A stretch of DNA of 39,377 nt from Bryobacterales bacterium (lineage in GTDB: Bacteria; Acidobacteriota; Terriglobia; Bryobacterales; Bryobacteraceae): assembly GCA_025462965.1 (NCBI GenBank), contig JAOAPQ010000068.1, forward strand, positions 1 to 39,377, in the 5' to 3' direction. The number at the start of each line of letters is the position of its first letter. Position 1 is the first letter of the stretch. The notes under the pieces were generated by a model. The model worked only from the letters and a program-made list of their open reading frames with translations. It did not search any database and was not told where the DNA came from. The translations under genes and the position numbers were made by a program. Of the stretch, positions 1,949 through 36,306 are shown piece after piece.

Positions 1949-3373
1949 TCAAAAAATCGCATAAAGGAACGGATTGCGGCTCTCGCCTCCCGCCAGCAGC
2001 AACATAATCACAAACACCACGGTGACGGCGGTGCATGAATAGACTGACCAGCGCCCCCAGCGCGGCAGTGACTCGACCAACTCGCCGCGTCGGTTACGGC
2101 GTCGAAAATAATCTGCGATTTCCAGCAGGACATATCCGCCGAAGCCGATTAGTATCGAACGCCCCGAAACATCCATCAGTCCTCTGAACTCAGCCGAAGG
2201 AAAACGGATACCGCTACCCAGGTGTCCCAGAAGGTAAAAAATGTCGGAAACGCGCTCGCCCCGGAAGAATACCGCGCCGATCGCCACCAAATGGAACGTC
2301 ACGACGGGTCCAATCCAGTTCATCGCCCGATCGGTACTTGGATGCGCTTTGTAAAAGCGCTTTCGCCATCGGGCGCTGAGAGCATCCACGGACAGATAGA
2401 ACGCGTGAAGCAGGCCGAATAAGGCAAATTCCCACCGCACGCCGTGCCAAACTCCGATCAGTACCAAATTGACCGTCAGGCTGAAGATTAAGCCGACATT
2501 TCCCCAATTGCGCGTCGCCATTCGTAGAGGAGTGAATACATAGTCTGTCAGCCACGAAGTGAGACTGATATGCCAACGGCGCCAGTACTCGCTGATGTTG
2601 TGCGCTGCGAAAGGTGCGTAGAAGTTCTCGGGCGTTTCAATGCCCAGCACCAGGGCCGACCCTACCGCTATGTCTGTCAGGCCGCCGAAATCCGCGTACA
2701 GTTGGAGCGGGTACGCATAGAACCCGAGCGCCAACGGAGTGCCCCGGCCATACACGTGGCCGTAGACGAAATTCACCAGAGTCTCCAAGTTGTCGGCCAC
2801 CACAAACTTCTTGAAGTAGCCGAGTAGAATACGCTGCACCCCCGTCATCACATCCGGAAGACGCGCCGCGGGCGCGCGATGGATCTCCTCCAGGAAGCTT
2901 TCGCTCCGCTGGATCGGTCCCGCAACGATTTGGGGAAAGAACGATGCATAGGAGGCGAGGGCGAGAAAGCTCTTCTCCGCCCGCATCTTGCCCCAGTACA
3001 CGTCCACCACATAACTGATGAGCTTGAATGTGTAGTACGAAATCCCGAGCGGGATCAGGAGATCGTGCTTGAAAATATCGCGCCAGAGGAAGGTCGTTTT
3101 GAAAATCGCGAGCAGCGCCACAAATGCAGACACCGCCGCAAACATCGTCCAGCGCTTTGCTGAGTCGTTCTGCGCTGTTTGTATGCGTCTGGCGGCAATG
3201 TAGGCGCAGGCAGTTGCCGCGAGCATCAGAGTCGCCAGGGAACCGCTCCAGGTCCAGTAAAACGCGTAGGAAGCGGCCAGGATCAGCCCGACCCGAAACC
3301 TCGCCGGCGCCAGGCGGTAAGCCACCCCGACAACGGTAAGAAAGATGCAGAATTTGAAGCTTGTGAAATCCAA
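1949..3373 (-). CDS. MBOAT family O-acyltransferase (AlgI/DltB-like)
   Basis: Polytopic protein with FFPQIVAGPIQR, YWRRWHISLTSWLTDYVFTPL and LIGVWHGVRWEFALFGLLHAFYL (catalytic WHG region). Confidence 0.92.
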   Translation of the reverse strand: MDFTSFKFCIFLTVVGVAYRLAPARFRVGLILAASYAFYWTWSGSLATLMLAATACAYIAARRIQTAQNDSAKRWTMFAAVSAFVALLAIFKTTFLWRDIFKHDLLIPLGISYYTFKLISYVVDVYWGKMRAEKSFLALASYASFFPQIVAGPIQRSESFLEEIHRAPAARLPDVMTGVQRILLGYFKKFVVADNLETLVNFVYGHVYGRGTPLALGFYAYPLQLYADFGGLTDIAVGSALVLGIETPENFYAPFAAHNISEYWRRWHISLTSWLTDYVFTPLRMATRNWGNVGLIFSLTVNLVLIGVWHGVRWEFALFGLLHAFYLSVDALSARWRKRFYKAHPSTDRAMNWIGPVVTFHLVAIGAVFFRGERVSDIFYLLGHLGSGIRFPSAEFRGLMDVSGRSILIGFGGYVLLEIADYFRRRNRRGELVESLPRWGRWSVYSCTAVTVVFVIMLLLAGGESRNPFLYAIF

Positions 3374-3387
3374 AAGTCGGGGCCTGT

Positions 3388-3630
3388 CTACGCGGCCTTC
3401 CTCTCGACCAGGGAGATGAAGTCGCCCACGTTATTCAAGCTCCTGACCTCTGCCGTGGTCAGCTTGATCTTGAAGGCTTTCTCGACCGCCACAATCAGGT
3501 TGATATGCGAAAGAGAATCCCAGCCCTCCACGTCCGCCGCGGTCATGTCATCGCTGACCTGGAGCGATGGATCGTCGAAGATGTCCTGGAAAATCGCATT
3601 CATGCGTTGTCTTAGGGTCTGCCGGTCCAT
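3388..3630 (-). CDS. Acyl carrier protein
   Basis: 80 aa; GWDSLSHINLIVAVEKAF contains the DSL phosphopantetheine-attachment serine. Confidence 0.9.
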   Translation of the reverse strand: MDRQTLRQRMNAIFQDIFDDPSLQVSDDMTAADVEGWDSLSHINLIVAVEKAFKIKLTTAEVRSLNNVGDFISLVERKAA

Positions 3631-3636
3631 GTGGTC

Positions 3637-5394
3637 TCAATCGCCTTCGGTGATGTAGATAGTGCGCGCCTGGTATGGCGCCGGGTCCAGATGCCACTTG
3701 CTTGCGCCGTCCTGCTCCGCCGTTTTTTCGAATCCGAACTGCGCGAAGAAATCTTTCACCATGGCATTTTTTGCCGTCGGAATGTACTCGCCGGTGATCC
3801 GCGTCAGCCCCTTTTCTCTCGCGAGTTCCACCACGCGCGTCATCAGGAAATGTTCTACCCCGCGCGCCAGGACGCGGCAGCTCATCAGCCAGTCGCCGAT
3901 CTCCAGCACGTCGGGCTTGATCCGGAGAATCACGATCGATATCAATCCATGGTCGCCGAACCGGTCCCGCAGGCTTGCGTAGAGCGGCACGCAGCCCTCG
4001 GTGTCGAGCATCATCTTTTCGCAGTCCCCTTCGTTGTAGCGGTGGGTTGTCAGGTTGAACTGATTGCTTCGCTGGATCAGCTGCGCGATTCTTGGAATCT
4101 TCGCCTTGTGGAACCGTGCCACTTCGATCTGCATCTCGAGCGACCTTAGATATTCGTCTATGTTCGAATAGGTGCTCTGCACCTCCCGCCGGCCGGCTTC
4201 CTGCTTATAAAGCTCGGAACGCGCGAGATCCTCCGCTGAAAAAGAGCTTGTTTCGAAAAGATTCAATTCCGAAATCGCACGCACATAGTCGGCCGGATCC
4301 TCCGGCATTTCCGGCACGATCACGTCCGGCAGGAATTGCCGAACCAGATTCCGCTCGAACGGATTGTCGTCCAGGAACACCATGGAGTCCAGGCCGATCT
4401 CGAGCGTGTCCCGGATCTTCCGTATGTTGTCCGCCTTGTTCTCCCAGTTCACGACGAACATCGTGATGTCCTGCCGCTTCAGAACCATTTCCGGATTCTC
4501 CACAAAGGGGCGCACCGCATTTTCGTGGTCATTCTTGCTGCAGACGGCCAGGAGAATTCCGCGGCGCTTGAGCGAAAGCAGGTAGTGCTGGAAGTGAAAG
4601 AAAGCTTCGCCATCTCCGTGCGCGCCGATCGAGATTCCGAGCGGCCCGTCATCGCCCACCACGCCGCCCCACAATGTGTTGTCGAGATCCAGCACCACGC
4701 ATTTCACGACGCGCCCCATCGTGGGAAGCGTCATTTCCACAAGCGCCTGCGCCACTTGCGGCAGGTGATCGAGTTGGCAGAATGCCTTGGTCATGTTCCA
4801 GAGCCGGTCGTCGTACCAGTTCTTTCGGCCTGCGTAGGACGCGATGCCTTCCACGTCGCAAACCAACACGTTGGCGCGCTCGCGGACACATTGGGCGATG
4901 TTCATGTTGATCGCCGCTACGCTCGCATAGAGAGAATGCGCCACTTTGAGGTCGTAGTTGCCAAACTGGCGCTCGTACGGAAGCGGATAATTGCACTGGA
5001 CCACGCACGCCGCACAATGCCTCCCCAGCGCGTCCCAGATACGTAGCATCCGTTCGGTGGCCGCCTCCGGAAAACCGGCTCCGCCGTGCTGGTAATAGCG
5101 GCTCCGCAAAGCCTGCGCGCAGTTCGCCAGCACGACGACGCCCGGCTGGAATTGGTATAACCCCGAGGAACGGTCGAACGTTTCCATTTCGATCGCGTCG
5201 AACGCGCCCTCATAGATCTCCGCGTTCACCCCGTTGTCATGGAACAAGGCCTTCAACAGCGGAACGAACTGCTGCGTTGCGGCGTCCGACAGAATCGCTA
5301 TCCGCGCGTTCTGATTTGACCCCTTCGTTACGAGCTTTCTGCCTGCGCGGGCAAGACGGCTGTAATCCAGATCTGGTGTGTTCTTGGAAATCAA
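3637..5394 (-). CDS. FkbH-like HAD-IIIC phosphatase / acyl-activating protein
   Basis: KCVVLDLDNTLWGGVVGDDG, LLAVCSKND, FLDDNPFERNLVR; C-terminal GNAT-like region; N-terminal region similar to FkbH-like N-terminal domains. Confidence 0.9.
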   Translation of the reverse strand: MISKNTPDLDYSRLARAGRKLVTKGSNQNARIAILSDAATQQFVPLLKALFHDNGVNAEIYEGAFDAIEMETFDRSSGLYQFQPGVVVLANCAQALRSRYYQHGGAGFPEAATERMLRIWDALGRHCAACVVQCNYPLPYERQFGNYDLKVAHSLYASVAAINMNIAQCVRERANVLVCDVEGIASYAGRKNWYDDRLWNMTKAFCQLDHLPQVAQALVEMTLPTMGRVVKCVVLDLDNTLWGGVVGDDGPLGISIGAHGDGEAFFHFQHYLLSLKRRGILLAVCSKNDHENAVRPFVENPEMVLKRQDITMFVVNWENKADNIRKIRDTLEIGLDSMVFLDDNPFERNLVRQFLPDVIVPEMPEDPADYVRAISELNLFETSSFSAEDLARSELYKQEAGRREVQSTYSNIDEYLRSLEMQIEVARFHKAKIPRIAQLIQRSNQFNLTTHRYNEGDCEKMMLDTEGCVPLYASLRDRFGDHGLISIVILRIKPDVLEIGDWLMSCRVLARGVEHFLMTRVVELAREKGLTRITGEYIPTAKNAMVKDFFAQFGFEKTAEQDGASKWHLDPAPYQARTIYITEGD

Positions 5395-5447
5395 GGCTAT
5401 CTTCGCGGGCAGCTAAATTTGGATTCTAACATCGTTGTTTAGTGCGC

Positions 5448-6209
5448 TTATGACTTCTTAAATACGGCGAACAAAGAGGCGGAGCTGCTGCCATTGAACC
5501 AATCCAATCTACGAAAGACGGATGTCAGCAGGATGCTCCCTGCCCATGCCATCATCTTAGGCAAGCGGGGTAGCCTGGCCTGTATCCAGCATCCGTATTG
5601 AGCAGGCACACCGGTATTGCGCGACAAAAGCGCAAGCTCGAATTCAGCGGGAAAGAGCGCACGCAAGGTTTCTTCGGTGTAGCCATCCAAAACGTGTCCG
5701 ATTCGTTCATGCATTTCACGGGTGAAAACGGCGGGATAGCGCGGAGTTGGAACGGAAACGACGATCTCGCCGCCCTTTCTCAGGCAGGGCGAAACATTTC
5801 TAATGATCGACGCCGGATTCTCAACGTGCTCGAGGAAATCCATGAACAGGACCACGTCGAAGACTTCACCCATGTCCGCGAGCTTGGTGGCGTCCTCGCA
5901 ATGAAATGTGATCTGCGGAAATCGCGCCGCTGCGATGCGGCGCGCTATTGCTATATCTCCGGAATCGAAGTCGTATCCCTCTCCGCGCATCCTCGATCCA
6001 AGGATTTTCGCCAGCTCAAAGAGACACCATCCTTCACCGCAGCCGATTTCCAGAACCCGCAGGTTACGGCCGCGATAATGCTTCGAAGCGTACTTTACCA
6101 ACGGCGCGATCCGTAGATGGTCATGCAGGCCCTTTGCGCCGAATGTCTTCGCAAGGAAAACGGCGGCTGGCTTCTTGTAGAGCGCTGCTTCCACGTCTCC
6201 TATCGGCAT
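5448..6209 (-). CDS. Class I SAM-dependent methyltransferase
   Basis: VLEIGCGEGWCLFELAKIL (motif I), DVVLFMDFLEHVENP, LRKGGEIVVSVPT. Confidence 0.88.
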   Translation of the reverse strand: MPIGDVEAALYKKPAAVFLAKTFGAKGLHDHLRIAPLVKYASKHYRGRNLRVLEIGCGEGWCLFELAKILGSRMRGEGYDFDSGDIAIARRIAAARFPQITFHCEDATKLADMGEVFDVVLFMDFLEHVENPASIIRNVSPCLRKGGEIVVSVPTPRYPAVFTREMHERIGHVLDGYTEETLRALFPAEFELALLSRNTGVPAQYGCWIQARLPRLPKMMAWAGSILLTSVFRRLDWFNGSSSASLFAVFKKS

Positions 6210-6327
6210 TTCTGTCTATGGTCCCCCTGTGGCATGGCGCCACTCTCGCAATTATCGCAGCAGGCGCGTACTTATTGTCGTCTCCCGAAGTATTTGCAAA
6301 AATCGTGAAGAGACCCCGCCCGCTCGA

Positions 6328-7503
6328 ATGCAACCCCAGGAAAGACGCTTGTCGATCGGTCGCGACCTGCTCATCGTAGCTGCGATCCTTGCGATCTGGA
6401 CCGCTGCTTTCGAAGGTTCCCTTCACCTGGCTGATCTTAAAGTCGAAGGATCTCTGTTTATGCGGGACCAGACGCGCGGCTTCCGGCTGCGCCCTCTCGC
6501 CGGAGCGTGGTATCTCACGGAAGGACAGACGTTCGTTACCATCAACAGGCGCGGATATCGGGACCGCGAGCGCGTTCCCGCTCCTCACCCCGGGGTATTT
6601 CGTATCGCTGTCATCGGCGATTCAAGCGTCATAGGCGAGCAGGTCCGAGGTGAACAAACCTTAACTCAGGTTGCAGAGCGGGCCCTTGCCGGTCAAACCG
6701 GGAACGTCGAAGTGCTGAATTTCGGCGTGCCGAATTACGGCTTGGCCCAACAATATCTCACGCTGCGTGACGATGTATTCGCGTACCAACCGGATCTGGT
6801 AGTCCAAGCCGTCTCCCTGACCAATGCCATTCTCAACAGCACGCGCGAAACTTGCGTCAACGAATCCCCTTACCCCTACTTCATGGAGCGCGACGGCCGC
6901 CTGGAATTGTACGATCCTCCGCCGGCTTACTGGCTCGATTCAGCTCGGGAACCCAAACTTCTGGATCTTGAGAATCATTTGGACCTCGCCCTTCTTTATC
7001 TGACAGCAGACCGCACGGTATCCGATATGGCTGATATTTGGGCGCGGCGATTCCATGTGAAACAGCCGCTTCCGGATGATTTCTACGAGCGTTCGTTGTT
7101 TCCGCCCCGGCTGCCCGCGGTCGAGAAGGCGTGGAACATTTCCGAACGCACAATCGCTCTGACTCGAGACCTCTGCGCGTCCCGGCACGTACCTTTCTGG
7201 ATGGTGACTCTCGATTACCCGGCTCAGGTGGATCCGGATCCGAAAGGCCGGGAAGCTTTCCGCGCCAGGTTCAATTCACCGGACCTTTATTACGCCGATT
7301 CGCGTCTCATCCGGTTTGCCGAACGCGAGAACATCCCGCACATTCAAGCAGCGCCCGTCCTGGCCGACTACGCGCTGAGAACTGGCAAATGCCTGCATGG
7401 CTTCTTCAACACGCCCCGCAACTACGGACACCTCAATGTAGAGGGACACAGCGTACTCGGCGCCTTACTCGCTGAGCGCCTTGCGAATACAATCCCGCGC
7501 TAG
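6328..7503 (+). CDS. SGNH/GDSL-type hydrolase-fold membrane-anchored protein
   Basis: N-terminal TM (LLIVAAILAIWTAAF), FRIAVIGDSSVIGE, VLNFGVPNYGLAQQYLTL, C-terminal GHLNVEGH. Start taken at MQPQERR within ORF 6229..7503. Confidence 0.75.
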   Translation: MQPQERRLSIGRDLLIVAAILAIWTAAFEGSLHLADLKVEGSLFMRDQTRGFRLRPLAGAWYLTEGQTFVTINRRGYRDRERVPAPHPGVFRIAVIGDSSVIGEQVRGEQTLTQVAERALAGQTGNVEVLNFGVPNYGLAQQYLTLRDDVFAYQPDLVVQAVSLTNAILNSTRETCVNESPYPYFMERDGRLELYDPPPAYWLDSAREPKLLDLENHLDLALLYLTADRTVSDMADIWARRFHVKQPLPDDFYERSLFPPRLPAVEKAWNISERTIALTRDLCASRHVPFWMVTLDYPAQVDPDPKGREAFRARFNSPDLYYADSRLIRFAERENIPHIQAAPVLADYALRTGKCLHGFFNTPRNYGHLNVEGHSVLGALLAERLANTIPR

Positions 7504-12028: not shown

Positions 12029-12802
12029 ATGAAAAATCGCGCTTGGGGGGGGGACTATTTCTTTCTGCTTTCGAATCTGATGCAGAAGGATTTTAAGATC
12101 CGCTACCGTAACATGTCGCTAGGCGTGTTCTGGTCCTTGCTGAATCCGCTCGTCACCATGGGTGTCCTGACGTTCGTCGTGACGCAGATCTTCAAGAGCC
12201 CGCAGCCCAATTACCCGGTTCGCATCCTTTGCGGCCTCGTACCCTTCAATTTTTTCAGTTTCGCCTGGGGAGTCGGAACCAACTCGATCGTCGATGGCAG
12301 CGCCTTCGTCAAGCGCGTTGCCATACCCCGCGAGATCATTCCCATCGCGTCGGTCTTCAGCAATTGCCTCCATATGTTCATTCAGATCGGGTTGTTGCTC
12401 TTCATGACCCTCGTCTTCGGCAATCCTGTCAACCTGAACTGGTTCTGGCTCCCGCTCATTTGGGGCCTCTTCATTGTCTTCGTCTGCGGGCTCACGCTGA
12501 TCACCTCCGCGCTCAATGTCTTCGTACGCGATGTGCGCTACCTGGTGGAATCCTTCAACGCGGTCCTGTTCTGGCTCGTGCCCATCTTCTACGGTTTCGA
12601 AATTGTTCCGGAAAGGTATCGCCCGATTTACGATTTCAACCCCGTCTCGGCGATGGTGTTCGCGCTCCGCCGCATACTGGTCGAAGGCGGCACGCCGTCA
12701 TTCTCCACAATCCGAAACCTCGCTTTTGTTTCCTTCAGTGCGCTGATCGTCGGTTTCATCGTCTTCCGGCAGCTTCGGCGCAAGTTTTACGACTATCTGT
12801 AA
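12029..12802 (+). CDS. ABC-2 type polysaccharide export permease (Wzm-like)
   Basis: LLSNLMQKDFKIRYRNMSLGVFWSLLNPLVTMGVLTFVVTQIF and RYLVESFNAVLFWLVPIFYGFEIVPERYRPIYDFNPVSAMVFALRRIL. Confidence 0.92.
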   Translation: MKNRAWGGDYFFLLSNLMQKDFKIRYRNMSLGVFWSLLNPLVTMGVLTFVVTQIFKSPQPNYPVRILCGLVPFNFFSFAWGVGTNSIVDGSAFVKRVAIPREIIPIASVFSNCLHMFIQIGLLLFMTLVFGNPVNLNWFWLPLIWGLFIVFVCGLTLITSALNVFVRDVRYLVESFNAVLFWLVPIFYGFEIVPERYRPIYDFNPVSAMVFALRRILVEGGTPSFSTIRNLAFVSFSALIVGFIVFRQLRRKFYDYL

Positions 12803-12805
12803 CCT

Positions 12806-13546
12806 ATGTCTCTGATCGAGTTCGAACGAGTTTCGAAGACATTCAAGCAGGGCGCGGGCGCCAAGTTGCTGCTGGGCCATGTCCAGGACCGCCTCCGGCG
12901 CACCGAGCGGAACCTCTTCTATGCTCTCCGCAATGTCTCCTTTAGGGTGGAGAAAGGCGAAAGCCTGGCTGTGATCGGACGCAACGGGGCGGGGAAGAGT
13001 ACGCTGCTCGGGCTCGTCGCCGGCCTCTCCGATCCCAACGAAGGGCGCGTCACCGTCAACGGCCGCGTCGCCGCGCTCCTCGAGCTTGGCTCCGGTTTTC
13101 ACTGGGATCTCACCGGCGTTGAAAATCTCTGGCTGAACGCCGCCCTGCTCGGACTCACGCGCAAGCGTACCGAGGAGATCTTCGATTCCATTGTCGAGTT
13201 CTCCGGCATCAGTGACTTCATCTTCCAGCCGCTCCGCACCTATTCCACGGGCATGGTCATGCGGCTCGCCTTCGCCATCGCCGTCCACGTCGATCCGGAC
13301 ATCCTCATCATCGATGAAGTACTAGCCGTTGGCGACGCCGCCTTCTACACCAAGTGCCTGGACAAGATCATGGAATTCCGCCACGCGGGCAAGACGCTGC
13401 TCTTCGTTTCCCACTCGGGCGCCATGCTCACCACCCTCTGCGACCGCGCGCTCTGGCTCGACCAGGGCCAGGTGATGGCCGATGGCCTCATCGCCGATGT
13501 CGCGCCGCTTTACGAGGGGCACGCGGCCACCCCCGTCGGTGCCTGA
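12806..13546 (+). CDS. Polysaccharide export ABC transporter ATP-binding protein (Wzt-like, no C-terminal carbohydrate-binding domain)
   Basis: VIGRNGAGKSTLLGLVAG (Walker A), YSTGMVMRLAFAIAV signature region, DILIIDEVLAVGD (Walker B). Confidence 0.93.
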   Translation: MSLIEFERVSKTFKQGAGAKLLLGHVQDRLRRTERNLFYALRNVSFRVEKGESLAVIGRNGAGKSTLLGLVAGLSDPNEGRVTVNGRVAALLELGSGFHWDLTGVENLWLNAALLGLTRKRTEEIFDSIVEFSGISDFIFQPLRTYSTGMVMRLAFAIAVHVDPDILIIDEVLAVGDAAFYTKCLDKIMEFRHAGKTLLFVSHSGAMLTTLCDRALWLDQGQVMADGLIADVAPLYEGHAATPVGA

Positions 13547-14570
13547 TCCCCAGCCGCTCGCGCCGCGCGTAACTGTCGCCATTCCCACCCTGGCAGCGGA
13601 TCAAGCGCTCTCCGAGTGCCTCGACTCCCTCTCGTGCCAGACGCTCGGCAATTTCGAAATCATCGTCATCGATAACAGTGGTCGCGGCCTGGTCCGCGAA
13701 CGAGGCCACGCCTCGCGCTCCCGCGTGCGCATCCTGGATATGACACACAACACCGGCTTCGGGGCCGCCATTAACCAGGCGATCGACGCCTCAACCGCAC
13801 CTTACATAGCAACCTTGAACGACGATGCCGTTGCATCATCGCGCTGGCTCGAAGCCCTCGTGGAAGCCCTGGACTCGAGACCCGACGCCGGAATGTGCGC
13901 ATCGCAGGTGCGCCTCGCCGGCGAAGACCTGCTCGATTCCGCCGGAATGCTCCTCTGCGCCGATGCCAGCAGTAAGCAACGGGGCCACACGCGCCATCCC
14001 CAGGACTTCAACTCGCCCGGCGAGGTTCTTCTGCCCAGCGCGTCCGCCGCGCTCTATCGGCGCGCCATGCTCGAACAAACCGGCGCTTTCGATCCCGATT
14101 TCTTCCTGTATTGCGAAGACACTGACCTCGGCCTCCGCGCCCTGCGAGCCGGCTGGAGGTGTCTCTATGCCCCAGGCGCCGTCGTGGACCATCGGTATTC
14201 GCATTCCGCCGGCCGTGTATCTTCGCTAAAAGCGTACTTCGTGGAGCGCAACCGTCTCTTCGTCGCGATCAAGAACTTCCCGCTCCGCATCCTTCTGGCC
14301 GTGCCTTTCGCCGCAGCGGCGCGCTACGCGTGGCATTTTTTTTATCTGCTGCAAGGCACCGGAGCGGCCGCCGGCTTCAGCGGAGAAGGGAACTCCGCCT
14401 GGAACCTTGCCTGGTACGTGCTGAAAGCTCACGGTTCCGCTATCGCCGCCCTCCCCGCATTGCTCCGGAAACGCCGCCAGATTCAGCGCACCGCGAAGCT
14501 GTCTTCGTCCGCCTTCATCCGCGTCTTGCGCCGCTTTTCCATCTCCCCGCGCGCTATCGCCAGGCTGTGA
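13539..14570 (+). CDS. Glycosyltransferase family 2
   Basis: VTVAIPTLAADQALSECLDSLSCQTLGNFEIIVIDNSG, IATLNDDAVAS, GAFDPDFFLYCEDTDLGLRALRAGW. GTG at 13539 proposed as start, 8-nt overlap with the ATPase gene. Confidence 0.88.
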   Translation: MPDPQPLAPRVTVAIPTLAADQALSECLDSLSCQTLGNFEIIVIDNSGRGLVRERGHASRSRVRILDMTHNTGFGAAINQAIDASTAPYIATLNDDAVASSRWLEALVEALDSRPDAGMCASQVRLAGEDLLDSAGMLLCADASSKQRGHTRHPQDFNSPGEVLLPSASAALYRRAMLEQTGAFDPDFFLYCEDTDLGLRALRAGWRCLYAPGAVVDHRYSHSAGRVSSLKAYFVERNRLFVAIKNFPLRILLAVPFAAAARYAWHFFYLLQGTGAAAGFSGEGNSAWNLAWYVLKAHGSAIAALPALLRKRRQIQRTAKLSSSAFIRVLRRFSISPRAIARL

Positions 14571-29356: not shown

Positions 29357-29520
29357 ATCTGCTCCTGGCCCAGTGCGTCATGTGCAACCGCACCGCCGCC
29401 GCGCAGCAGGCCGCTCGCGCTGGCGTTCTGAATTCCGGTATATTGATCCTTCTGATTCCGCCTATCCTGATCCTTGGCGGGTTACTCTGGCTGGCCTACA
29501 CTCGCCAAAGAAATGAATAG
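29353..29520 (+). CDS. 55-aa membrane miniprotein with CxxC motif
   Basis: GTGA overlap with preceding gene; VNLLLAQCVMCNRTAAAQQAARAGVLNSGILILLIPPILILGGLLWLAYTRQRNE. Confidence 0.65.
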   Translation: MNLLLAQCVMCNRTAAAQQAARAGVLNSGILILLIPPILILGGLLWLAYTRQRNE

Positions 29521-31033
29521 GATGTTCCCGAAACTCTCGCTCGCTCTCGCACTCGTCCTGGCCGCCGCCGCACAAACTCCCGGCGGCAATATCCCAACCC
29601 TCTTCGTAGCCGGCGACTCCACCGCTAACAACAGCGCCGCAGGCCAGCAAGGCTGGGCCGACCCCTTCGCCGCCTATTTCGACCCCGCCAAAATCCACGT
29701 CGCGAACCGCGCCCGTGCCGGCCGCAGCAGCCGCACCTTTCAGACCGAAGGCCTCTGGGACAAAATCCTCGCGGAAATGAAACCCGGCGATTTCGTCCTC
29801 ATCCAGTTCGGCCACAACGATGGCGGCCCTCCCGATAAAGATCGCGCCCGCGGTTCGCTCCCCGGTACCGGTGACGAGACGAAAGAAGTCACCATGCCGG
29901 ACGGCGCGAAAGAAATCGTCCATACCTACGGCTGGTACATGACCAGGTTCATCACGGACACCAAAGCCAAAGGCGCAACGCCCGTCGTGCTCTCGCTCAC
30001 CGTCCGCAACATCTGGACCAATGGAAAGGTCGAGCGCGGCTCCGGCCAGTTCAACAAATGGGCCGCCGAGGTGGCCGAATCGCAGCATGTGCCGTTCGTC
30101 GACGTAACGCGCATCATCGCCGATCGCTATGAACAGATGGGCGAGGACAAGACGAAAGCGTTCTTCCCGGGCGACCACACCCACACCAATCCGGCCGGGG
30201 CGGATTTCAATGCCGCTGCCGTTGTGGCCGGTCTTCGCGCCATCGAGAACAGTCCCTTTACTGCCAGCTTCTCGGCCAAGACCGCGACCCGTTCTCTCAA
30301 TCTCCCGGAACCAAAAGATCCCAATCTCCCCACCCTGTTCCTAATCGGCGATTCCACAGTTCGTAACGGCCGCGGCGATGGCGCAAACGGCCAGTGGGGC
30401 TGGGGCGAGCCGCTGGTGCGCTATTTCGACGCCGCGAAAATCAACGTGGTCAACCGCGCTGTGGGCGGTCTCAGCAGCCGCACGTATCTCACCGACGGCC
30501 ATTGGGACAAGGTTATGGCCATGCTGAAACCGGGTGACTTCGTTATGATGCAGTTCGGTCACAACGACAACGGACCGCTGGACGATGTCGACCGCGCCCG
30601 GGGCACCATCAAAGGCGCGGGTGAAGAGACGCGCGAGATTTACAATCCCATCCACGTGCAACATGAAGTGGTCCACACTTACGGCTGGTATCTGCGCAAG
30701 TTCATCACGGATGCGAAGGCCAAAGGCGCCACGCCCATCGTCTGCTCGCTCGTCCCGCGGAAGATCTGGAAGGAAGGCAAGATCGTCCGGGCCTCCGCCG
30801 ATTATGGGAAGTGGGCGGCCGACGTCGCGAAATCCGAAGGCGTCGTATTCATCGATTTGAACGAAATCATCGCCCGCCGTTATGATCAACTGGGCGCAGA
30901 AAAGGTCGAGCCGCTTTTCGCCGATCCGCACACCCACACCAGCCGCGCTGGCGCCGAGCTAAACGCCGAATGCGTGATCTCCGGTCTGAAAGCTTTGCCC
31001 AAAGATCCGCTAACCTCCTACTTCGCGAAATAG
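29513..31033 (+). CDS. Tandem-duplicated SGNH (rhamnogalacturonan acetylesterase-like) esterase
   Basis: Two homologous units: IPTLFVAGDSTANN...QFGHNDGG...DHTHTNPAG and LPTLFLIGDSTVRN...QFGHNDNG...DPHTHTSRAG. Start may be 29513 or 29522. Confidence 0.88.
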   Translation: MNRMFPKLSLALALVLAAAAQTPGGNIPTLFVAGDSTANNSAAGQQGWADPFAAYFDPAKIHVANRARAGRSSRTFQTEGLWDKILAEMKPGDFVLIQFGHNDGGPPDKDRARGSLPGTGDETKEVTMPDGAKEIVHTYGWYMTRFITDTKAKGATPVVLSLTVRNIWTNGKVERGSGQFNKWAAEVAESQHVPFVDVTRIIADRYEQMGEDKTKAFFPGDHTHTNPAGADFNAAAVVAGLRAIENSPFTASFSAKTATRSLNLPEPKDPNLPTLFLIGDSTVRNGRGDGANGQWGWGEPLVRYFDAAKINVVNRAVGGLSSRTYLTDGHWDKVMAMLKPGDFVMMQFGHNDNGPLDDVDRARGTIKGAGEETREIYNPIHVQHEVVHTYGWYLRKFITDAKAKGATPIVCSLVPRKIWKEGKIVRASADYGKWAADVAKSEGVVFIDLNEIIARRYDQLGAEKVEPLFADPHTHTSRAGAELNAECVISGLKALPKDPLTSYFAK

Positions 31034-32716: not shown

Positions 32717-34981
32717 GTGCGAACGGCCGCCCGCAAACGTGCTATTACCTTCATAAGCGCTGGCACTTTCTACGCGCTTCTCCTGACCCCTGCGTTCCGG
32801 GCCGCTGCCGCCCCCTACCAAACCGCCGTCCAACCATTCCTCCGCGAATATTGCCTGACTTGCCACAGCGCCTCCGTCGCCTCAGGCACCGTCAATTTGC
32901 AGCAATATCAGACCAAACCCGCCACTGAAGCTCTCAAAGACCGCCCCACCTGGGAACTGGTCCTCCGCAAACTCCACGCGCGGGAGATGCCGCCCCGCGG
33001 TTCCAGGCAACCCTCCGAAGACCAGGTCGCCGCCATTACTAACTGGATCGAATCCGAATACGCCCGTCTGGACCGCACCGCGAAACCCGACCCCGGACGC
33101 GCCATCGCTCATCGTCTGAACCGCTACGAGTACAACAACACCGTCCACGACCTCCTCGCGGTCAATCTCCGAGTCGCCGAGGACTTTCCCGTCGATCCAT
33201 ACGGCTACGGCTTCGACAACATCGGCGATGTTCTCTCGCTCTCGCCCGTCCTGACTGAGAAGTACCTAAAGGCCGCCGAGCGCCTCGCCAAGGCAGCCAT
33301 CCCGACCGACGAGCCGCAAAAACCGATCGCCGCCCGCTATCTCGCCGAGCGCATGGGCCAAGCCAACAAGCTCCACATCTCCGTGGTCCATGAATTCCCC
33401 GTCGATGGCGATTACACCCTGCGCTCGGCATGGTTCCAGGTTTTCAAAGTTGGAACAAAACTCCGGGGCCGCCTGTTTCTCGACGGCAAACACGTGAGCG
33501 ACCAGGCGCTCATCTTCTATACCGAGATGGATCGCGGCTTTGAAGCCCACGACCTGCATGTCTCCCAGGGGCCGCACAAGGTAGAAGCCGATATTGAGTT
33601 CGAGGCGGATGCGAAGGGCGCGAAGCCCTACCTGGAATACATCCAGATCTACGGGCCGAATAGACAGACGCCCGCGCAGCTCACGGCTAGTTACAAACCA
33701 ATCTTCGTGTGCGGCCATGCGCCGGGCCAGCACCATCCTGAATGCGCGCGCCGCATCCTCGCTCCGCTCGCGCACCGCGCCTTTCGCCGCCCAGTCTCTC
33801 CGAATGAACTGGATCACCTCGCCGCGCTCGTGAAATTGGCCCAGGACCACGGCGATTCCTTCGAGACCGGAATGCGCGTCGCGCTCGAAGGCATCCTCAT
33901 GTCTCCGAATTTCCTGTTCCGCATCGAGCGCGATTCCCAAGACCAACCCGGCGTGGCGCACCCCGTGAGTGACACGGAACTCGCCTCCCGCCTCTCCTAC
34001 TTCCTGTGGAGTAGCATGCCCGATGACGAACTGCTCGCGCTCGCCGGGAAGGGCCGCCTTCACGCCCCCGGGGTGCTCGAAGCCCAAGTGCGTCGCATGC
34101 TGGCCGACCGCAAATCCCACGCGCTCGTCGAGAACTTCGGCGGCGAATGGCTGCAGACCCGCAATCTCGACGTTCTGAAACCGGACCCGGTCCGCTTCCC
34201 CGAATTCGATCCGGAACTTCGCGAAGACATGCGCACCGAAACGCAAATGTTCTTCGGTGCGATCGTGAAAGACGATCGAAGTATTCTCGAATTTCTCGAC
34301 GGCCGCTTCACATTTCTGAACGAGCGTCTGGCGAAACACTACGGCATTTCCGGCGTGGAAGGTTCCGAATTCCGCCGCCGCGAACTCGATGGCGTCCAGC
34401 GGAGCGGCGTTCTCACGCAGGCCAGCGTCCTCACGGTTTCGTCCTATCCCACTCGTACGTCCCCGGTGATTCGCGGTAAGTGGGTGCTCGAAAATCTACT
34501 GAATACGCCACCCCCGCCTCCCCCGCCCGACGTACCTGCGCTCGATGAAACAGCGGCGGGCACAACCGTTTCCCTTCGTCAGCAACTCGAAGCGCACCGC
34601 GCCAACGCCACTTGCGCCGGCTGCCACTCGCGGATGGATCCTCTCGGTTTCGGCCTGGAAAATTACGACGCCATCGGCCGCTGGCGCTCGGCTGATGGCA
34701 AGTTCCCCATTGATGCCTCGGGGGTGCTGCCGAACGGAAAGGCCTTTACGGGAGCCGCGGAATTGAAGACAATCTTGAAAGGGGACCAATCCGCTTTCGT
34801 CCGCGCATTGACCGACAAAATGCTCACCTACGCTCTGGGAAGAGGTCTGGAAACCTACGATCGCCCCGCCGTCGAGAAGATAGCGAAGAGCGTGGAAGCG
34901 GACGGTTTTCGTTTCTCCCGCCTCATCCAGGCGACCGTTGACAGCGTACCGTTCCAGATGCGCCGTGGAGCGAATCAATAA
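32717..34981 (+). CDS. DUF1592-family protein (with DUF1587/1595/1588/1585-type segments) and planctomycete-type cytochrome c motif
   Basis: FLREYCLTCHSASVASG (CxxCH); RLNRYEYNNTVHDLL; FLFRIERD; SRLSYFLWSSMPDDELL; RTSPVIRGKWVLENLLNTPPPPPPPDVP; CAGCHSRMDPLGFGLENYDAIGRWR. Confidence 0.93.
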   Translation: MRTAARKRAITFISAGTFYALLLTPAFRAAAAPYQTAVQPFLREYCLTCHSASVASGTVNLQQYQTKPATEALKDRPTWELVLRKLHAREMPPRGSRQPSEDQVAAITNWIESEYARLDRTAKPDPGRAIAHRLNRYEYNNTVHDLLAVNLRVAEDFPVDPYGYGFDNIGDVLSLSPVLTEKYLKAAERLAKAAIPTDEPQKPIAARYLAERMGQANKLHISVVHEFPVDGDYTLRSAWFQVFKVGTKLRGRLFLDGKHVSDQALIFYTEMDRGFEAHDLHVSQGPHKVEADIEFEADAKGAKPYLEYIQIYGPNRQTPAQLTASYKPIFVCGHAPGQHHPECARRILAPLAHRAFRRPVSPNELDHLAALVKLAQDHGDSFETGMRVALEGILMSPNFLFRIERDSQDQPGVAHPVSDTELASRLSYFLWSSMPDDELLALAGKGRLHAPGVLEAQVRRMLADRKSHALVENFGGEWLQTRNLDVLKPDPVRFPEFDPELREDMRTETQMFFGAIVKDDRSILEFLDGRFTFLNERLAKHYGISGVEGSEFRRRELDGVQRSGVLTQASVLTVSSYPTRTSPVIRGKWVLENLLNTPPPPPPPDVPALDETAAGTTVSLRQQLEAHRANATCAGCHSRMDPLGFGLENYDAIGRWRSADGKFPIDASGVLPNGKAFTGAAELKTILKGDQSAFVRALTDKMLTYALGRGLETYDRPAVEKIAKSVEADGFRFSRLIQATVDSVPFQMRRGANQ

Positions 34982-36306
34982 TGAAACAACTGCCCCGCCG
35001 CACCCTTCTGCGGGGGCTCGGCGCATCCATCGCTCTGCCTTTCCTCGACGCGATGGTTCCCGCTTTCGCCGCGCCCGCACGCTCCGCATCAGCCGGCCCC
35101 ACTCGCCTGATGTACGTATACGCGCCAACGGGCATGATGCCGCAAGCCTGGTACCCCGAGACTACCGGCGCTGAATTCACGTTCCCGCGCATCATCAAAC
35201 CGCTCGAAAAGTTCCGCAAGGACATCCTAGTGATCAGCGGGTTGGGCGACAACCCAGGGCGCGCTCTCGGCGATGGACCCGGCGACCATTCCCGCGCCGC
35301 GGCCAGCTATCTCACCGGCGCGCATCCCAAGAAAACCGAAGGCGCCGATATCCAGTGCGGCATCTCTGTCGATCAGGTCGCCGCGCGGAAGTCAGGCAAA
35401 GAGACCAGGTTTGCGTCGCTCGAACTGACTTGCGAAGATAGCCGCCAAGCGGGCGCTTGCGACAGCTATAGCTGCGCGTATCAGAGCATTTCGTGGAAAT
35501 CGGAAACGCAGCCGCTGCCGCCGGAGATGAATCCGCGGCTCCTCTTCGAACGTCTCTTCGGCGATCTCGATCTCAGCGGCAGTCCGGCTGAGCGCCGGAA
35601 CCAGCAGACTTACCGCAAGAGCATCCTCGACCTCGCGTTTCAGGACACGCAGACTCTGAAAGGCACGCTCGGCGCGGGCGACCGCCGCAAGCTGGATGAA
35701 TATCTCACCTCCATTCGAGAACTGGAGAATCGGATCGAGAAAGCCGAAACTGATACGCGCCGGCTTCCGCCCGGGATCGGCAAGCCGGAGGGAATCCCGC
35801 CCAACTATGCGGACCATGCGCGGCTCCTGTTCGATCTGGTCACCGTCGCCTTCCAGACTGACATGACGCGCGTTGCCACCTTCATGATGGCCCGCGAAGG
35901 CGGCCTTCGCACCTACGCTGAATGTGGAGTTCCTGAAGCGCACCACTCCATCTCCCACCACCGCGGCGACCCGGCGTTGATCGAGAAGATCACGAAAATC
36001 CAGTGCTACCACCTGGAGCAATTCACTTACTTCATCGAAAAGCTGAAATCAACGCCCGATGGCGATGGCTCGCTGCTCGATCACTCCGCCATCGTATACG
36101 GCGCGGCGATGGGAGACCCGAACGTGCACGACCACGGCACGTGTCCTACGCTGATCGCCGGCAACGCGCGAGGCCGGATACAAACCGGGCACCATGTGTC
36201 CTACGAGAAGGAAACCCCCATGGCCAACCTGCACCTCTCGCTGCTGGACTGCGCCGGCGTCCCGACCGAGAAACTAGGCGACGCCACGGGCCTGGTCGAC
36301 TTGTAA
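34981..36306 (+). CDS. DUF1552-family protein
   Basis: RRTLLRGLGASIALPFLDAMVPAFA; RLMYVYAPTGMMPQAWYPE; YGAAMGDPNVHDHGTCPTLIAGNARGRIQTGHHV; TAATG overlap with the DUF1592 gene. Confidence 0.93.
   Translation: MKQLPRRTLLRGLGASIALPFLDAMVPAFAAPARSASAGPTRLMYVYAPTGMMPQAWYPETTGAEFTFPRIIKPLEKFRKDILVISGLGDNPGRALGDGPGDHSRAAASYLTGAHPKKTEGADIQCGISVDQVAARKSGKETRFASLELTCEDSRQAGACDSYSCAYQSISWKSETQPLPPEMNPRLLFERLFGDLDLSGSPAERRNQQTYRKSILDLAFQDTQTLKGTLGAGDRRKLDEYLTSIRELENRIEKAETDTRRLPPGIGKPEGIPPNYADHARLLFDLVTVAFQTDMTRVATFMMAREGGLRTYAECGVPEAHHSISHHRGDPALIEKITKIQCYHLEQFTYFIEKLKSTPDGDGSLLDHSAIVYGAAMGDPNVHDHGTCPTLIAGNARGRIQTGHHVSYEKETPMANLHLSLLDCAGVPTEKLGDATGLVDL

Follow-up and report, generated by a model that had tools for sequence, protein, structure and literature searches.

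A conserved FkbH-ACP-MBOAT gene set in a Bryobacterales bacterium, a candidate route for acylation of envelope glycans

The stretch analysed here (the window) is the entire contig JAOAPQ010000068.1, 39,377 bases from the fragmented 6.9 Mb genome of a Bryobacterales bacterium (GCA_025462965.1). Towards one end lies a run of four minus-strand genes, in which a class I S-adenosylmethionine-dependent methyltransferase (5448-6209, 253 aa; Methyltransf_23, 1.5e-17) is followed after 53 bp by an FkbH-like enzyme (3637-5394, 585 aa; TIGR01686, 312.6 bits; FkbH_N, 5e-28). A gap of 6 bp leads to a stand-alone acyl carrier protein (ACP; 3388-3630, 80 aa; PP-binding, 3e-5) and one of 14 bp to a membrane-bound O-acyltransferase (MBOAT; 1949-3373, 474 aa; Pfam MBOAT, 8e-23). 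Divergent from this run, on the plus strand, is a gene for a transmembrane (TM)-anchored protein of the SGNH fold (6328-7503, 391 aa from ATG 6328). The domain assignments of the four minus-strand genes are firm at the sequence level. All five genes had been named in an earlier note on this DNA, and domain searches, together with AlphaFold and Foldseek for the SGNH protein, found each of them to be real and correctly placed. The same note had seen no polyketide synthase (PKS) genes nearby, and this too was borne out, as no ketosynthase-like open reading frame (ORF) or ketosynthase motif was found in the window. The few ketosynthase genes in the same genome are all on other contigs. A PKS explanation for the window was dropped for lack of a ketosynthase there.

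The FkbH-like enzyme scored above the curated cut-off of TIGR01686 (146.65 bits) and is thus a member of the family. An FkbH_N domain (residues 31-220) is accompanied by a HAD-IIIC phosphatase domain (motif DLDNT, nucleophile D236, acid D238) and a C-terminal GNAT-like acyltransferase fold. The HAD DxD, second-motif Ser, Lys and DD are all present and are invariant in two alignments, as is Cys506 of an SCR motif (codon at about 3879-3877, minus strand), which may carry the acyl group. The Cys of a VCSKN motif was also weighed as the acyl acceptor but rejected, since several relatives have A, S or V in its place; the SCR Cys is preferred because it is invariant. The structure was predicted from an alignment of the window and genome loci. 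In Foldseek searches with the AlphaFold model, the N-terminal part matched BF1531 (3slr, 39% identity), which is the solved N-terminal part of an FkbH relative, and the C-terminal part matched GNAT acyltransferase folds. The overall predicted template modelling score was low (0.48), and the model was therefore read by domain and not for domain arrangement; read in this way, it supports a phosphatase and a transferase within one chain. The ACP has its phosphopantetheine Ser39 within GWDSLSH. In vitro, the FkbH homologue Tmn16 uses 1,3-bisphosphoglycerate to load glyceryl onto discrete ACPs (PMC3625739; cf. PMC7489565). The closest relative of the window FkbH belongs to an Acidobacteria metagenome-assembled genome, and the FkbH of locus L065 is 73% identical to that of the window. 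Further FkbH-domain genes or fragments occur in the same genome (contigs C500, C226, C344, C13, C861, C1 and C267), some of them beside an ACP and an SDR.

The MBOAT retains the catalytic His310 (VWHG) and terminates in NPFLYAIF directly before the stop codon. The hexapeptide FLYAIF (codons 1952-1969, minus strand; Tyr471) fits the acyl-shuttle motif FxYxxF, whose Tyr in PatA and DltX ferries the acyl group from the MBOAT to an SGNH protein, and which is absent as a C-terminal tail from DltB (PMC12148441). Because the motif sits on the MBOAT itself, no small DltX-like ORF is needed in the window. A sequence search for solved relatives returned only DltB proteins; against the DltB equivalog TIGR04091 the MBOAT scored 205.4 bits, below the cut-off of 375. 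The hexapeptide ends 51 of 55 FkbH-linked MBOATs. Four lack it: one is truncated at the end of its locus, for two the motif is found in the small ORF that follows, and L086 is left without an explanation. The two with a neighbouring motif come from uncultured Clostridium (L117:10115-11684 and L121:2337-3906); here a 444-aa MBOAT is followed by an overlapping ORF (102 and 88 aa, respectively, with one TM helix) ending in FLYFQF, which could be either a natural split like that of DltB and DltX or a shared frameshift.

In a tree of 56 MBOATs, FkbH-linked and unlinked proteins were separated by 2 changes, compared with 17 in shuffles, and the window MBOAT clustered with linked ones alongside those of L065 and L067. 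The clustering is partly taxonomic, since the unlinked MBOATs were drawn only from related acidobacterial genomes. Linked MBOATs of the same family still group with or beside other linked ones. Outside the family, the best match within the phylum (L213, 43%) is likewise joined to FkbH, an ACP and a TM-anchored gene with SGNH-type motifs.

The gene set is conserved well outside the window. FkbH relatives were collected by a scan of one genome per species, giving 80 loci, and neighbours were counted within 6 kb. An ACP was found beside 72 of them, an MBOAT beside 50, MaoC beside 32, VOC beside 19 and a particular methyltransferase beside 10. As the loci are the best-scoring relatives and not a random sample, the MBOAT share of 50/80 is not a prevalence. 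Joint conservation of FkbH, ACP and MBOAT was one of the checks on which the earlier note had staked its proposal, and the proposal came through it. Judged by record titles, the MBOAT-linked FkbH loci belong to Acidobacteriota, Alphaproteobacteria, Nitrospirota, Omnitrophota, Elusimicrobiota, Bacteroidota, Bacillota, Verrucomicrobiota and Spirochaetota. The trio is spread over at least seven phyla and is carried by the laboratory strain Sinorhizobium meliloti 2011, so the set is no local oddity. Moreover, in a set of 61 genomes, made up of that of the window and 60 related ones, four FkbH-MBOAT pairs lay no more than 6 kb apart where about 0.1 were expected (P about 3e-6), an association far beyond chance. 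The set is readily seen in named plasmid records: a Rhodobacteraceae SC52 plasmid has ACP-FkbH-MBOAT-TM protein-VOC, plasmid pTM1 of Tistrella carries an MBOAT, ACP, methyltransferase and FkbH, and S. meliloti pSymB has VOC-MBOAT-SGNH-like-ACP-FkbH near glycosyltransferase and capsule genes. The gene between MBOAT and ACP on pSymB of S. meliloti ml59 (L229:7228-8457, WQP17344.1) is annotated as a 'TonB-dependent receptor'; it looks rather like a TM-anchored SGNH-type protein, whose copy in Rm41 (L044) contains GGSTT and DPGH. No description of the FkbH-ACP-MBOAT set was found in the open-access literature, although a subscription paper may have been missed.

Sequence searches with the divergent protein of the window gave a sub-threshold GDSL match (6e-4). 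With the sequence match this weak, it is the AlphaFold model that settles the SGNH fold (predicted local distance difference test 82; N-terminal TM helix at residues 9-34), its top Foldseek matches being mostly SGNH/GDSL enzymes. The mechanically called ORF starts at 6229, which is 19 bp from the start of the methyltransferase. ATG 6328 is the likelier start, because the TM helix then comes directly after it and some 118 bp are left for divergent promoters. The block-I Ser99 and His368 are conserved, and the protein is a candidate periplasmic transferase. For 45 MBOATs another gene follows closely on the same strand; nearly all of these genes encode TM-anchored proteins of about 300-375 aa, and 25 of them pass a loose three-part SGNH motif test. 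Glycosyltransferases (two clusters) were found near 16 of 51 MBOAT-linked loci, compared with 4 of 29 others.

Building on the observed gene identities, catalytic motifs, folds, shuttle motif and cross-phylum conservation, we propose the following route. FkbH would draw glyceryl from 1,3-bisphosphoglycerate, with the HAD domain stripping the phosphate and the GNAT-like domain loading the phosphopantetheine of the adjacent ACP, probably through Cys506. The methyltransferase may then O-methylate the ACP-bound glyceryl. On the cytoplasmic side the MBOAT would receive the acyl group from the ACP and, by means of His310, pass it on to Tyr471 of its own FLYAIF shuttle at the outer face. Finally the acyl group would move to Ser99 of an SGNH protein, probably the one encoded divergently, which would esterify an envelope glycan. 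We infer the FkbH, MBOAT and SGNH steps from family knowledge; proximity is the only ground for the methyltransferase step, for a glycan as acceptor and for assigning the last step to the SGNH protein of the window. The core of the proposal, that an ACP-bound, glycerate-derived C3 acyl group is handed by the MBOAT to an envelope polymer, had been put forward in the earlier note. It is well backed by the conservation of the trio, the intact catalytic motifs, the hexapeptide, the SGNH partners and the glycosyltransferase neighbours, and we regard it as probable.

Several observations weigh against this proposal. The acyl group is proposed from family knowledge only. In 30 of the 80 FkbH loci no MBOAT was found within 6 kb and, even though some of these are cut by contig ends, FkbH-ACP pairs therefore have other uses as well. 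No polysaccharide synthesis genes directly adjoin the window set. Those closest to it, a Wzm/Wzt-like exporter and a GT2 glycosyltransferase, lie at 12029-14570, 4.5 kb past the SGNH gene with other genes between, a link too loose to assign. The SGNH gene is divergent and so outside the operon, and in its product the canonical Asp, expected two or three positions ahead of the His, is missing. The proteins most closely related to it (L147, L168 and L171) likewise have Ser and His without that Asp, which other relatives do possess. The methyltransferase bears only a weak resemblance to that recurring in the loci of other phyla and may for that reason be an unrelated neighbour.

These last points bear on a variant of the proposal which is compatible with it. 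Here both the methyltransferase and the SGNH protein would be mere bystanders, with unmodified glyceryl as the cargo and a periplasmic partner encoded elsewhere. The 53-bp gap between methyltransferase and FkbH points the same way, and phmmer found no homologue of either protein in L065, L066, L067, L068 or L213. On the other hand, L168 has a homologue of the SGNH protein directly after an MBOAT, L045 has one next to the trio, and methyltransferases of another subfamily recur in 10 of the 80 FkbH loci, in Tistrella pTM1 and in Paroceanicella. We consider the bystander variant quite conceivable, though short of an even chance, and retain the methyltransferase as a candidate enzyme for O-methylating either the acyl group or the glycan.

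The tailoring genes differ between loci, being a methyltransferase, MaoC and SDR, VOC, or a transketolase pair with an aldo-keto reductase. A split transketolase pair accompanies FkbH and ACP in L101, L116, L122, L123 and L125 (in four of them with an MBOAT, and in several with an aldo-keto reductase); such loci point to a further acyl chemistry beyond glyceryl. MaoC and SDR acting on glyceryl-ACP would yield lactyl-ACP by dehydration, tautomerisation and reduction, which is the logic of bryostatin-type polyketide loading modules, where a lactyl starter is formed. A second alternative for the window is that the same machinery carries this other cargo, with glyceryl-ACP dehydrated and reduced in trans and lactyl esters formed. 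FkbH-ACP loci repeatedly contain MaoC-SDR fusions or separate MaoC and SDR genes; L065, whose FkbH is so close to that of the window, has a fusion that suggests a lactyl cargo, and L045 has one as well. However, no homologue of MaoC or of the matching SDR was found in the window, where the methyltransferase occupies that place, and a lactyl cargo is accordingly judged unlikely here. Glyceryl is the default cargo of FkbH, and the methyltransferase of the window suggests O-methylglyceryl. Since this is the only tailoring gene present, glyceryl or O-methylglyceryl is the best guess, and O-methylglyceryl as the exact acyl group is put forward only tentatively. Groups of this kind do occur on bacterial surfaces. 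Native gellan bears an L-glyceryl substituent, a glyceryl ester on an exported polysaccharide (PMC9737242). In Campylobacter jejuni, dimethylglyceroyl is found on pseudaminic acid and the fkbH-domain gene cj1302 lies in the flagellar glycosylation locus; strain 12664, in which cj1302 is a pseudogene, is without those glycans, and cj1295 is the gene shown to be needed (PMC7099621).

The weakest alternative, that FkbH and ACP feed a soluble acyltransferase, sugar-nucleotide N-acylation or a secondary metabolite while the MBOAT is an independent acetyl-CoA O-acetyltransferase, can draw on the loci with FkbH and ACP but no MBOAT, such as that with a PKS in Methylosinus, on the dimethylglyceroylated nonulosonic acid of C. 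jejuni and on the presence of the same hexapeptide on unlinked MBOATs, but it sits poorly with the gaps of 6-14 bp between FkbH, ACP and MBOAT here, with their being joined across phyla and with the phylogenetic separation of linked from unlinked MBOATs, and is the least likely of the three.

Taken more broadly, the handing of an ACP-bound acyl group to an MBOAT may define an undescribed class of envelope acylation that is both widespread and modular. In such systems FkbH and ACP would provide glyceryl from a glycolytic intermediate, interchangeable tailoring genes (methyltransferase, MaoC and SDR, VOC or transketolase pair) would convert it to different acyl groups, and the MBOAT, fed by the ACP and equipped with an acyl-Tyr shuttle of its own, would act with an SGNH protein to pass these to surface glycans in many phyla; we place the odds of this wider generalisation as even. 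If true, envelope acylation in bacteria would have a third type of donor, an ACP-bound sugar acid as opposed to acetyl-CoA or D-Ala-carrier protein, and the shuttle would be part of the MBOAT itself. Surface chemistry would be linked directly to glycolytic flux, and the glyceryl, methylglyceryl and lactyl substituents of bacterial polysaccharides, the genes for which are, to our knowledge, mostly unassigned, would become accessible to genetics. Elsewhere in the window, a protein with two GDSL/SGNH domains (29474-31033) weakly resembles the pectin acetylesterase PaeY, and a two-gene set (32717-36306) encodes a PSD/DUF1592-type cytochrome protein followed by a DUF1552 protein.

Parts of the set resemble several known systems. 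The dimethylglyceroyl-pseudaminic acid of C. jejuni is alike in placing a glycerate-derived, O-methylated acyl group on a surface glycan; unlike the window set, however, that system is linked to nonulosonic acid and flagellin synthesis, and we know of no MBOAT that takes part in it. Native gellan shares the glyceryl ester on an exported polysaccharide, and a named gene for its glyceryltransferase was not found in the open-access literature. With the FkbH/Tmn16 glyceryl-ACP synthases and the methoxymalonyl-ACP (FkbG-K) operon, the set has in common an FkbH and a discrete ACP, and a methyltransferase in addition. That operon contains the dehydrogenases FkbI and FkbK together with a PKS, whereas no PKS, FabH-like or FkbI/FkbK dehydrogenase genes lie next to the window trio, in which a putative export acyltransferase is joined to FkbH and ACP instead.

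O-acetylation of the PatA/PatB and AlgI type shares an MBOAT with a C-terminal FxYxxF and a catalytic His, and has an SGNH partner for which the window offers a candidate. In these systems the donor is an acyl-CoA and there is no carrier gene, whereas the window set has a dedicated ACP, conserved with the MBOAT, and an acyl loader. The SGNH partner of PatA/AlgI has a Ser-His-Asp triad; the candidate in the window has the fold, Ser and His, with the Asp not at the usual place. MBOAT/SGNH pathways other than Dlt operate without a carrier protein (2025 PatA paper, PMC12148441), a rule to which the window set is, by gene content, an exception.

The earlier note had likened the set to the Dlt pathway of teichoic acid D-alanylation (DltA-DltC-DltB-DltX-DltD). 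This likeness held for gene content, both having a carrier protein, an MBOAT and an SGNH-fold protein. The carrier protein is the thioester donor in Dlt, and the ACP, encoded 14 bp from the MBOAT, is a candidate for the same role. The likeness did not hold for the MBOAT itself, which is not DltB and which resembles PatA more closely. The Dlt shuttle is a separate microprotein, DltX, with FxYxxF; that of the window is fused to the end of the MBOAT, as in PatA/AlgI. Moreover, Dlt uses the adenylating DltA, whereas no DltA-type AMP-binding domain was found among the scanned ORFs of the window, which has FkbH instead, and the FkbH-ACP-MBOAT set, in contrast to Dlt, occurs in many diderm phyla. Taken together, the set is best described as having a carrier protein, as Dlt does, and a fused shuttle, as PatA does, and its FkbH loader sets it apart from both.

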